This document shows positions 15,576-17,934 of a stretch of DNA of 64,000 nucleotides, in pieces. The DNA lies in assembly GCF_017676345.1 (NCBI RefSeq), contig NZ_JAFFZM010000003.1:248001-312000 (forward strand), read 5' to 3'. Both the position numbers and the translations under genes were made by a program. How positions within the stretch are numbered: position 1 is the first letter of the stretch; the number at the start of each line of letters is the position of its first letter. Source of the stretch: Streptomyces smyrnaeus (GTDB lineage Bacteria; Actinomycetota; Actinomycetes; Streptomycetales; Streptomycetaceae). The notes under the pieces were generated by a model. That model was given only the letters and a program-made list of their open reading frames with translations, made no database searches and was not told where the DNA came from.

Positions 15576-16202
15576 ATGACCGCTGCCCCGACTGCTTCCC
15601 CGACCCCTTCCCCGAGCCTGCGGGAGGTGATCGGCCTCGACAACCGACTTCCCCGGCTCGCCGAGACCACCCTCGTCATGATCGACTTCCAGAACACCTA
15701 CCGCACCGGCGTCATGACCCTCGAAGGCGCCGAGCCGGCCCTCGCAGCCGGAGCCCGCCTGCTGGCCGCCGCCCGCGCCGCGGGCACCCCCGTCGTCCAC
15801 ATCGTCAACGACGGCGGCGAGGACACCCCCTACGACATCCGCGCCGACATCGGCGCCATCAGCCCCGAAGTCGCCCCTGCCGACGGAGAACCCGTCGTGG
15901 TCAAGCACCACCCCGACGCCTTCCACGACACGGACCTGGACAAGATCCTGCGAGAACTCGGCGCTGGCACACAGCTGGTGCTGGCCGGCTTCATGACCCA
16001 CATGTGTGTCACCTTCACAGCCCAGGGCGCCTTCAACCTCGGCTACCGCCCCACCGTCGTCGCCGAGGCCACCGCCACCCGGTCCCTGGCCGCCCCCGAC
16101 GCCACCGTCATCCCAGCCGCCACCCTCCATCTGGCCGCCCTCACCACCATCGCCGACCTCTTCGGCCCCATCGCCCCCACCGTCGCCGACCTCACCCCCT
16201 AG
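15576..16202 (+). CDS. Isochorismatase-family cysteine hydrolase
   Basis: A 208-residue hydrolase of the isochorismatase/nicotinamidase fold. The catalytic triad candidates are visible: Asp in LVMIDFQNTYRTG, Lys in VVVKHHPDAFHDT, and Cys in FMTHMCVTFTAQG, with the conserved cis-peptide region before the Cys. The true substrate is unknown; related Streptomyces proteins are amidases rather than isochorismatases. ATG 15576 is preferred because CGGAG precedes it by seven bases; ATG 15558 is in frame but lacks a site. It follows the DJ-1/AraC regulator. Its stop codon shares the CTAG tetramer with the stop of the convergent LAGLIDADG gene. Confidence 0.88.
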   Translation: MTAAPTASPTPSPSLREVIGLDNRLPRLAETTLVMIDFQNTYRTGVMTLEGAEPALAAGARLLAAARAAGTPVVHIVNDGGEDTPYDIRADIGAISPEVAPADGEPVVVKHHPDAFHDTDLDKILRELGAGTQLVLAGFMTHMCVTFTAQGAFNLGYRPTVVAEATATRSLAAPDATVIPAATLHLAALTTIADLFGPIAPTVADLTP

Positions 16203-16969
16203 TACTTGGCCCCGACGTGCGCGTCCATCAGCGCCACGGAGGCACGACGGGCGACGGAGATGTTGTACGGCTCCGCGCCGCGCTTGGTGACCTTCCACTC
16301 GACCCCGACCTGATCAAGGGTGCGGCAGTAGATCTGCCGAACGTCATCGGACTTGTTGGTGAAGAAGTAGCGCGGGTACTCGTAGCGCTTCCGCTGCCCG
16401 CCGACCATACGCGTGGTCCAGTTCGTGATCCGGCAGCCGTCTGAGTGCACGAGCCCACGGATCAGCTCCCAGGGGTACACGTCAACGATCTCCTGCTGCC
16501 AGGGGGCCAGTACGATCCGGCGCCCGTGCTTCCTGCCGGGTCCGTGCTGGGGAAAGAGGCAGGGCCAGTGACTGGAGTAGGCGGTCACATTGACGCAGCC
16601 AGGACGCTGGACGCGGCAGACCTTGTTCTCCGGTCGGACCAGGCGCATCGCCTGTTCGCAGGCGTCGATGAGCCCGGGCCAGACGTCCGCGCACGCGATC
16701 CGGAGAGTGTAGGTGCGGGCCAGCCGACTGACGCAGCCGTCTCCGAGGTAGAGGCCTAAGAGGTAGCTGTAGGCAGCGACGTCCGCCGGTGGTCGAGGAG
16801 GAGAGGAGCACCGCTCACATGTGGTGGTGCATCGGCGGCTCGGGTGGAGCCTCTGCTGCCACGAGCGGAGGCACCACCGCGAGATGCCGGTCTGCTTGCT
16901 GACGGAGTTGAGGCTGCGGCCCTGCGCGACGAGTGCGAGAGCGCGCCTCCTCGTGTTGATGTCGTACAT
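16199..16969 (-). CDS. HTH plus LAGLIDADG homing-endonuclease-like protein
   Basis: A 256-residue protein. Residues about 10-40 (ALALVAQGRSLNSVSKQTGI) look like a homeodomain-type helix-turn-helix, and residues 47-54 carry a C-x3-C-x2-C cluster. Two LAGLIDADG-type motifs follow: YLLGLYLGDGC with Asp77, and ELIRGLVHSDGC with Asp177. Each ends in the acidic residue needed for metal binding, so a monomeric double-motif nuclease or a domesticated DNA-binding protein is expected. No intein or intron host surrounds it. The start lies 111 bases downstream of the CAA tRNA on the same strand, so the two may be co-transcribed. Whether it still cuts DNA cannot be told. Confidence 0.8.
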   Translation of the reverse strand: MYDINTRRRALALVAQGRSLNSVSKQTGISRWCLRSWQQRLHPSRRCTTTCERCSSPPRPPADVAAYSYLLGLYLGDGCVSRLARTYTLRIACADVWPGLIDACEQAMRLVRPENKVCRVQRPGCVNVTAYSSHWPCLFPQHGPGRKHGRRIVLAPWQQEIVDVYPWELIRGLVHSDGCRITNWTTRMVGGQRKRYEYPRYFFTNKSDDVRQIYCRTLDQVGVEWKVTKRGAEPYNISVARRASVALMDAHVGAKY

Positions 16970-17079
16970 GCGAGCAGCATTCGCTGATACGTACGACGCG
17001 GGAGGGTGAAAGGGGCTCCGTTAGCTCGATGGAGTGGAGTCAGTCGCTTTCGCTTGTCACCTTGGAATCGAAGGTGAAG

Positions 17080-17154
17080 TGCCCCGGGTCGGACTCGAAC
17101 CGACACTGTATGGGTTTTGAATCCATTGTCTGCTGCCAATTGGACTACCGGGGC
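17080..17154 (-). tRNA. tRNA with anticodon CAA (class I fold, Leu codon UUG)
   Basis: The acceptor stem GCCCCGG/CCGGGGC pairs perfectly, with discriminator A and no encoded CCA. Other canonical features are U8, a three-pair D stem (GTC/GAC), GG in the D loop, T33, A37, and a T arm GTCGG-TTCGAGT-CCGAC. The anticodon stem ATGGA/CCCAT has four pairs and an A-C mismatch next to the loop TTCAAAA, giving anticodon CAA. The variable region is only five bases (ACAGT). Bacterial leucine tRNAs are class II with a long variable arm, so the leucine identity is doubtful. Confidence 0.85.
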
Positions 17155-17250
17155 CAACGGAATCGCAGGCTAACGCCTACCCGCTGTGTTCTCACTTTAC
17201 AACACCTAGGTAGGCTCGAAGGTCCCACCTGTGCGGAAACGAGGAGCCAA

Positions 17251-17934
17251 GTGAGCGCGGCGGACTTCCCCGAGCCTGAGAGTGCCCAGAGTGCAGAGTC
17301 CGTCGAGGCGGAGGCCTCGACGGACGGTAGTGCGCATGTACCTCCGGCGACGACCCGGGTCGTGATCGCGGAGGACGAGGCGCTGATCCGGATGGATCTC
17401 AAGGAGATGTTGGAGGAGGAGGGCTACACCGTCGTCGGCGAGGCCGGAGACGGCCAACGTGCGGTGGAGCTGGCTCGTGAGCACCGTCCTGACCTGTGCA
17501 TTCTCGATGTGAAGATGCCGGTGCTCGACGGTATCTCCGCGGCCGAGAAGATCGCGGAGGAGAGCATCGCGCCGGTGCTGATGCTGACGGCGTTCTCCCA
17601 GCGGGAGCTGGTCGAGCGGGCTCGGGACGCCGGGGCGATGGCCTACCTGGTGAAGCCGTTCAGCAAGAGCGATGTGGTGCCGGCCATCGAGATGGCGGTC
17701 TCCCGGTTCACGGAGTTGAAGACGCTGGAGAAGGAGGTCGCCGACCTCTCTCAGCGGCTGGAGACGCGGAAGCTGGTGGACCGGGCCAAGAGCGTGCTGC
17801 AGACGCAGTACGGGCTGACGGAGCCGGCCGCTTTCCGGTGGATCCAGAAGACGTCGATGGACCGCCGGCTGTCGATGCAGCAGGTGGCGGAGGCGGTCAT
17901 CGCTGACGCCGAGGAGCGCAAGAAGCAGCAGTAG
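17251..17934 (+). CDS. pdtaR: ANTAR-domain response regulator
   Basis: A 227-residue two-component regulator acting on RNA. After an acidic, disordered first 35 residues, the receiver domain begins at TRVVIAEDEALIRMDLKEML. The phosphorylation Asp lies in DLCILDVKMPVLDG, with the conserved Thr in MLTAFSQRE and Lys in YLVKPF. A coiled linker leads to the ANTAR domain (about 165-220), with the motif RAKSVLQTQYGLTEPAAFRWIQ. Such proteins bind two-hexanucleotide-loop RNAs to prevent termination. The partner kinase (PdtaS) is not in the window. GTG 17251 is chosen because GAGGAGCC precedes it and the longer frame upstream crosses the tRNA. Confidence 0.93.
   Translation: MSAADFPEPESAQSAESVEAEASTDGSAHVPPATTRVVIAEDEALIRMDLKEMLEEEGYTVVGEAGDGQRAVELAREHRPDLCILDVKMPVLDGISAAEKIAEESIAPVLMLTAFSQRELVERARDAGAMAYLVKPFSKSDVVPAIEMAVSRFTELKTLEKEVADLSQRLETRKLVDRAKSVLQTQYGLTEPAAFRWIQKTSMDRRLSMQQVAEAVIADAEERKKQQ

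Follow-up and report, generated by a model that had tools for sequence, protein, structure and literature searches.

How does a Streptomyces cell read UUG with a leucine tRNA that lacks the long variable arm, and why do close relatives carry a tRNA of the other structural class at the same site? The question arises from a stretch of 64,000 nt of the Streptomyces smyrnaeus genome (assembly GCF_017676345.1, contig NZ_JAFFZM010000003.1, positions 248,001 to 312,000 of the forward strand; the whole stretch is referred to as the window, and positions are counted from its first nucleotide). It holds a class I tRNA-Leu(CAA) gene with a short variable loop, followed by a free-standing gene of the LAGLIDADG type. 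We consider it rather probable that the pair represents a homing endonuclease spreading together with a resistant replacement tRNA-Leu, with the tRNA acting as the cell's UUG decoder. Comparison with relatives links the tRNA class at this locus to the putative endonuclease gene, not to the other flank, and places that gene almost exclusively beside tRNA-Leu.

The class I tRNA-Leu(CAA) gene

ARAGORN calls a single tRNA in the window, a tRNA-Leu(CAA) at 17,079-17,154 on the minus strand, and the Rfam tRNA family RF00005 covers 17,080-17,154 over its full length (53.2 bits, E 5.1e-10). On these two grounds the class I tRNA with a CAA anticodon described in the initial annotation is genuine. The gene comprises 75 nt without CCA, which is not encoded (17,080-17,154, minus strand, anticodon at 17,117-17,119), and folds into an acceptor stem of 7 bp, a D stem of 3 bp, an anticodon stem of five positions and a T stem of 5 bp, with a variable loop of 5 nt and the discriminator A73. 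When 23 relatives of the class I tRNA-Leu type (22 distinct; 20 with CAA and 3 with UAA anticodons) are aligned, the cloverleaf together with pair 15-48 is 97.0% paired, and 14 pairs have changed on both sides. As none of 500 shuffles reached either value, we regard the class I tRNA-Leu as a constrained tRNA family. The Levitt pair 15-48 is A-U in 18 and G-C in 4 of the 22 distinct rows.

An A-C mismatch had been noted at the top of the anticodon stem. The mismatch is present but forms the loop-proximal pair, A31-C39, which closes the anticodon loop; the same mismatch is seen in 25 of the 84 unique sequences of class I tRNA-Leu(CAA), drawn from loci adjoining either the response regulator or the LAGLIDADG gene described below, and is therefore not a defect of the window copy. 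The D arm, previously likened to that of tRNA-Gln, is instead of the leucine type (A14, A15-U48, G18G19, 3-bp stem). A crude comparison of whole-molecule identity with the other tRNAs of the genome singled out no isotype, with Lys-UUU on top, Leu-UAA second and Gln-CUG lower. A scan for promoter and terminator found nothing.

The only CAA tRNA found and the meaning of UUG

The assembly (8.08 Mb in 69 contigs, listed as 100% complete) holds 58 Rfam tRNA matches, each covered by an ARAGORN call. Its tRNA-Leu genes for CAG, GAG (2), UAA and UAG are all class II, while CAA is represented by the class I gene alone. The search for a second, class II tRNA-Leu(CAA) that had been suggested as a check was run with ARAGORN and Rfam and found none in the assembly, a copy in a gap between the 69 contigs being possible. 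A pattern for the Leu(CAA)-like 3' half gave eight matches genome-wide, of which one is a tRNA by the ARAGORN and Rfam lists, namely the window gene. Neither the tRNA lists nor this pattern revealed a hidden second gene of class II in the assembly. Such an absence is one half of the refuting condition named in the initial annotation, the other half being normal leucylation of the tRNA. Six Streptomyces are likewise listed with one CAA tRNA gene apiece, of unstated shape class (PMC4932002). Since the class I gene is the only CAA tRNA found, one leucyl-tRNA synthetase (LeuRS) must serve both tRNA forms in one cell, and a single LeuRS gene lay above the cut-off in each of 15 genomes examined.

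The meaning of UUG was read from codon alignments of seven genes (the response regulator, five liv genes and LeuRS; the G053 response-regulator row was dropped from alignment A2 for an in-frame stop). UUG accounts for 52 of the 4,112 leucine codons of the class I-bearing genomes in these alignments, and the 52 codons fall in 44 columns. Leaving out one column, the annotated TTG start of livJ, the other sequences have leucine as the majority residue in 34 of the remaining 43, which is indirect evidence that UUG is read as leucine. The UAA tRNA (bldA type) might read UUG too, by wobble.

A73 and a 15-48 pair (A-U in 64, G-C in 20) are common to all 84 unique class I sequences, and U8, A14 and the GG of G18G19 are present in 82. 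The long variable arm of class II is absent, with a 5-nt variable loop in 84/84. E. coli LeuRS needs A73, A15-U48, G18G19 and A20a, whereas the long variable arm is dispensable, and tRNA-Leu variants minus both the long variable arm and the anticodon arm remain active (PMC9976931); the assumed dependence of bacterial LeuRS on the class II shape thus fails for E. coli. From its sequence, the class I tRNA-Leu(CAA) is likely charged with leucine. The earlier suggestion of a minor UUG decoder holds as far as UUG decoding is concerned but not as a minor extra copy, as no other CAA tRNA turned up in the genome.

Two tRNA classes alternate at one site

The tRNA gene is flanked by a response regulator with an ANTAR domain (17,251-17,934, plus strand; Pfam Response_reg and ANTAR), which serves as a conserved landmark. 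It adjoins one tRNA-Leu(CAA) in all 80 named Streptomyces loci inspected, these being the best 80 of 581 by response-regulator similarity and not a random draw, and the tRNA belongs to class I in 52 of them and to class II in the other 28. In the 20 longer loci taken from a set of 30, the class I gene is always divergent from the response regulator. Relatives without the class I gene have a class II tRNA-Leu(CAA) at the same site. We accordingly rejected, for the present state, the idea of a phage tRNA that supplements the host's, because the gene occupies the allelic site of class II genes.

Among 61 genomes 44 carry class I and 14 class II, and 3 were untypable (G032, G051, G060). No genome with both classes was seen among the 61, of which only the window genome was searched exhaustively. 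The class II search pattern misses variants (it missed G019, G021, G026, G030 and G049, which were recovered later), and the lack of class II alongside class I is firmly established for the window genome only. Both alleles co-occur in several families, and many other actinomycetes have a class I tRNA at their tRNA-Leu(CAA) locus.

For the main tests four duplicates were removed from 116 loci. On a tree of the response regulator and livF (RR+livF) for the resulting 112 loci, tRNA class requires 32 changes, compared with a mean of 30.1 for shuffled labels, and 449 of 500 shuffles require no more than 32. Class therefore carries no signal on this tree, as its changes match those of shuffled labels. 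We then turn to the 15 closest pairs of opposite class, which are 93-97% identical in the neighbour genes. Seven of these were aligned, and all seven show a bounded replaced block. Identity is mostly about 90-98% outside the block and mostly 35-60% inside, from ~100 bp before the tRNA to 600-950 bp past its 5' end, while the C-terminal half of the downstream LAGLIDADG gene retains 55-97% identity in most discordant pairs. What is replaced is thus the tRNA with its upstream region and, from the LAGLIDADG gene, either the N-terminal part or the whole. Four control pairs of the same class have smaller or shorter dips, with the exception of L249/L223. In the window the corresponding exchangeable cassette, i.e. 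the tRNA with its upstream region and the LAGLIDADG gene, spans approximately 16,199-17,210 if its borders are taken from relatives; its own borders are blurred, the nearest relative in the set being 87% identical in the neighbour genes and different in the far flank.

A putative homing endonuclease downstream of the tRNA

The LAGLIDADG gene (16,199-16,969, minus strand, 256 aa) is a separate open reading frame (ORF) on the same strand as the tRNA gene and downstream of it; the tRNA gene is uninterrupted, and the ORF is not part of an intron or intein. It combines an N-terminal helix-turn-helix (HTH) region with two LAGLIDADG-like motifs. The initial annotation passes over this gene, which we consider central to understanding the locus. 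Pfam HTH_28 and LAGLIDADG_3 both match below their curated cut-offs, and at curated cut-offs neither Pfam nor NCBIfam gave the ORF a name. An AlphaFold model (mean pLDDT, the predicted local confidence, 89.4) matched homing endonucleases best in a structure search (I-Tsp061I with E 9.9e-8, I-AniI, I-DmoI), with WhiA structures lower at 2.2e-5. D77 in motif 1 (LLGLYLGDG; codon at 16,739-16,741, minus strand) and D177 in motif 2 (LVHSDG; codon at 16,439-16,441, minus strand) are invariant in 35/35 rows of alignment A3, and from their position in the motifs we take them to be the putative catalytic acids. WhiA, by comparison, has lost the endonuclease residues; a WhiA-like regulator was ruled out by the invariance of D77 and D177 and by the fact that the gene is often broken or absent. 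On the strength of the modelled fold the ORF looks like a LAGLIDADG homing endonuclease.

The gene is single-copy in the window genome. Intact copies have a median ratio of nonsynonymous to synonymous substitution rates (dN/dS) of 0.35 (1,707 pairs, partly saturated). Once duplicates were removed, 110 loci had 1,000 nt or more of sequence beyond the tRNA on the downstream side (L240 and L258 were excluded here and kept in the pair test below); the gene is intact in 57 of the 110, broken in 16 and absent in 37. Such a mix of intact, broken and absent copies is expected of a homing cycle.

Of the 61 genomes mentioned above 33 carry the gene, 32 at this locus and one (G054) beside tRNA-Leu(UAG). 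A wider set of 394 genomes drawn from the taxonomic class yielded 87 with the gene. Its 53 loci outside Streptomyces lie beside tRNA-Leu(CAA) in 45 cases and beside tRNA-Leu(UAG) in seven, with one at a contig end without a tRNA; the gap between the LAGLIDADG match and the tRNA measures 35-462 bp (51 loci). The remaining 34 genomes are Streptomyces, of which 29 gave newly examined stretches, G000 and G013 had been covered separately and G327, G428 and G435 were left out; all 29 stretches have tRNA-Leu(CAA), 18 of class I and 11 of class II. The arrangement is not uniform, the gene being located on the opposite side of the tRNA in family f21 (5/5) and upstream of Leu(UAG) in family f6 (6/6, plus G054). 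These arrangements suggest that residence beside tRNA-Leu arose more than once. Three loci, L160 (G036), L340 (G221) and L343 (G239), have a pair of diverged LAGLIDADG genes in tandem next to a single tRNA-Leu(CAA), as would be seen after a newer cassette had inserted at an older one.

No LAGLIDADG homologue was matched in annotated phage and plasmid collections. Distant relatives (29-39% identity) are found within tRNA arrays on 10 viral contigs (L324-L333), and the nearest tRNA is a tRNA-Leu in 7 of the 10. Class I tRNA-Leu(CAA) occurs on three of the viral contigs, and several are rich in leucine tRNAs.

tRNA class and tRNA turnover follow the LAGLIDADG gene

On a tree of the LAGLIDADG gene (59 rows) tRNA class requires 9 changes, compared with a shuffled mean of 18.0, and none of 500 shuffles is as low. 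The same 59 rows on the RR+livF tree need 19 changes against a mean of 17.9, with 416 of 500 shuffles as low. When the gene is divided into segments, tRNA-proximal first, the N-terminal, middle and C-terminal parts need 8 (0/500), 10 (0/500) and 15 (39/500) changes, respectively. The best tracker of tRNA class is the N-terminal HTH region, about residues 1-45 (16,835-16,969, minus strand). Its two types, A and B, distribute over the 59 deduplicated loci as 29 A with class I, 1 A with class II, 8 B with class I and 21 B with class II (Fisher p 1.5e-8), so that type A pairs with class I in 29/30 and type B with class II in 21/29. The N termini of family f19, read by eye, suggest the same one-sided rule. 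The one-sidedness may mean that type A endonucleases are incompatible with class II genes, perhaps because the latter contain the type A target.

Turnover of the tRNA was scored in pairs of loci, which are not independent, with identity below 85% counted as replacement. Among pairs that were 92% or more identical in RR+livF, replacement affected 28 of 33 with the gene in both members, 18 of 23 with the gene in one and 4 of 19 with the gene in neither. The contrast is weaker at a threshold of at least 90% (87/107, 77/94 and 26/49, respectively). Genus g8, in which the gene lies at Leu(UAG), provides a reciprocal control: Leu(UAG) has a mean pairwise identity of 81% (71-99%, 7 genomes), Leu(CAA) one of 97% (89-100%) in the same 7 genomes. 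As a further control, Leu(CAG) of 36 same-genus genomes was compared with that of the window genome and gave 96-98% identity in 29, 88-89% in 5 and nothing above 82% in 2.

A proposed mechanism and its alternatives

In the mechanism we propose, the window tRNA is the cell's leucine tRNA for UUG and would be charged by the ordinary single LeuRS despite the missing long arm. It would be one allele of a two-gene cassette at a fixed site, composed of tRNA-Leu(CAA) and the free-standing LAGLIDADG homing endonuclease. The endonuclease probably cuts the tRNA-Leu locus in DNA carrying a different allele, and repair from the cassette would copy in the endonuclease together with its own sequence-altered tRNA, which would no longer be a target yet would still read UUG. 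Such an element would attack a gene used by the cell and supply a recoded rescue copy, i.e. act as a natural home-and-rescue element, and repeated sweeps would leave class I and class II tRNA-Leu(CAA) alternating among close relatives. The simplest account would be intronless homing with co-conversion of the linked altered tRNA. We see about an even chance that this is a natural bacterial home-and-rescue drive in the full sense, in which a tRNA-Leu-specialised LAGLIDADG endonuclease swaps in a recoded, cleavage-resistant tRNA, even across class I and class II, and a housekeeping tRNA behaves as an endlessly turning-over selfish allele.

Several observations weigh against the spread of an endonuclease with a resistant tRNA. 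The class rule is one-sided, with type B occurring with both classes. The RR+livF tree covers ~1.3 kb at the locus and is not genome-wide, and recombination in the flank would also scramble the labels. Same-class control pairs diverge somewhat within the block as well, and L249/L223, both class II, diverge widely there although the first 60 bp of their tRNAs are 97% identical. The tRNA is also replaced in pairs without the gene (the 4 of 19 and 26 of 49 given above), and five gene-less genomes of genus g3 with identical tRNAs may simply be close relatives. The tRNA can do without the LAGLIDADG gene, since 37 of the 110 loci lack it. Nine of the 43 UUG columns sit at non-leucine positions, and 3 of the 10 viral relatives, on near-identical contigs, have a CAU tRNA and not tRNA-Leu as their nearest tRNA.

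An unlikely alternative, the best placed of four, is diversification of tRNA-Leu(CAA) in an arms race against nucleases that cut tRNA (toxin or phage-defence tRNases), with the LAGLIDADG gene as a passenger that just inserts next to tRNA-Leu genes. These tRNases would recognise the long variable arm or the anticodon arm, so that dropping the long arm is a plausible escape, and the replacements seen without the LAGLIDADG gene are as expected here. Such a race does not predict, however, that diversity in genus g8 follows the gene at Leu(UAG) while Leu(CAA) is nearly frozen, nor that replacement is rarer where the gene is absent. An association of class with the N-terminal part of a protein is likewise not predicted by a race at the RNA level.

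We regard as slightly less likely again that a phage or integrative element destroys tRNA-Leu(CAA) and supplies its own, as in tRNA-dependent lysogeny, with decayed prophages leaving foreign tRNAs behind. Mycobacteriophage Gaia encodes a tRNA-Leu-CAA and has the host's tRNA-Leu-CAA as its integration site (PMC10865867), several phage records hold similar tRNAs annotated as tRNA-Leu, and in viral contigs L326 and L327 a class I tRNA-Leu(CAA) is located less than 30 bp from LAGLIDADG relatives. The swapped block, however, is ~1 kb in size and filled by the tRNA and the LAGLIDADG gene, with both flanks conserved in the aligned pairs, and no integrase domain was detected in the eight neighbouring ORFs of the window (E up to 1e-5). 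Phages may have supplied the alleles originally, which leaves the linkage to the LAGLIDADG gene unexplained.

Plain homologous recombination of old tRNA alleles among streptomycetes, without any drive and with the LAGLIDADG gene merely linked, seems to us a little more doubtful still. Streptomyces do recombine, and the presence of class I and class II alleles together in several families is what an old polymorphism would give. Yet Leu(CAG) lacks such a pattern, the flank within ~100 bp retains its own history, and turnover follows the presence of the LAGLIDADG gene. In the last alternative the gene would encode an orphan tRNA bearing an amino acid other than leucine (programmed mistranslation), or else one with a regulatory role, both of which the initial annotation had considered. 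This reading finds a precedent for its mismatch of class I shape and leucine anticodon in the dedicated mistranslating tRNA-ProX of Streptomyces (PMC10365949) and is very improbable, because the gene is the sole CAA tRNA found, UUG falls mostly in leucine columns (34/43), leucine identity features are kept, no LeuRS beyond the single one is listed, and relatives hold a class II tRNA-Leu(CAA) at the same site.

Relation to known systems

Among the leading matches of searches in an open-access library, most subscription papers lying outside this scope, we recognised no report that a class I tRNA-Leu serves as the sole isoacceptor in a bacterium and none of this endonuclease-tRNA cassette. The nearest known cases are SegB, tRNA-dependent lysogeny and the short-loop tRNA-Leu(UAG) of mycobacteria (PMC6582537). 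SegB of phage T4 and its kin, known for intronless homing and marker exclusion, are free-standing endonucleases beside tRNA genes (PMC13096335), as is the gene described here. SegB differs in being a phage-borne GIY-YIG enzyme with no evident isotype preference, whereas the LAGLIDADG gene is located in bacterial chromosomes and keeps to the vicinity of tRNA-Leu, and the tRNA linked to it would be an altered allele of the host gene that this tRNA replaces. In tRNA-dependent lysogeny (Gaia) a mobile element also inactivates a host tRNA and brings a replacement of the same isotype (PMC10865867), but it does so with an integrase and a prophage, while the present locus has a LAGLIDADG cassette of ~1 kb and the allele appears to be replaced in place.

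Mobile tRNA clusters of mycobacteria contain a short-variable-loop tRNA-Leu(UAG), in some strains with an HNH endonuclease gene (PMC6582537); there the tRNA is an extra copy beside the normal one, whereas here it is the only copy of the isoacceptor found. Animal mitochondrial tRNA-Leu also lacks the long variable arm and is charged by LeuRS (PMC9976931), but is organellar. Streptomyces tRNA-ProX shares the apparent mismatch of body and anticodon (PMC10365949) and is encoded next to an unusual partner synthetase, while the window gene is the sole CAA tRNA and no extra LeuRS was seen in its genome.

A class I tRNA-Leu working next to a class II set under one LeuRS amounts to a natural experiment on tRNA identity, and annotation of tRNAs by anticodon hides this kind of allele replacement. 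Synthetic cleave-and-rescue and home-and-rescue drives combine a nuclease with a recoded, resistant copy of the attacked gene. If the linked endonuclease indeed drives the swaps, the cassette would be a natural counterpart of these engineered rescue drives; the synthetic drives have been built in insects and other eukaryotes, whereas the present candidate is natural, bacterial and unproven, with a tRNA as the rescue.

Other unusual tRNA genes

The Gln(UUG) tRNA of the window genome (L055, G000:C68:131129-131199) has a body very unlike that of the Gln(CUG) tRNA. Leucine tRNAs of short form also occur for other anticodons in related genomes. Neighbouring Leu(GAG) and Leu(CAG) genes were found in L163 (G050), L164 (G045), L166 (G038) and L167 (G044); all four Leu(CAG) genes are class I, as are the adjacent Leu(GAG) genes of L164 and L167, and the Leu(GAG) genes of L163 and L166 are longer. 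Short tRNA-Leu(UAA) genes of 75-79 nt are present in L165 (G009), L090 (G057), L093 (G053), L094 (G054), L162 (G060) and L169 (G059) and, where their position is known, lie away from the tRNA-Leu(CAA) locus.
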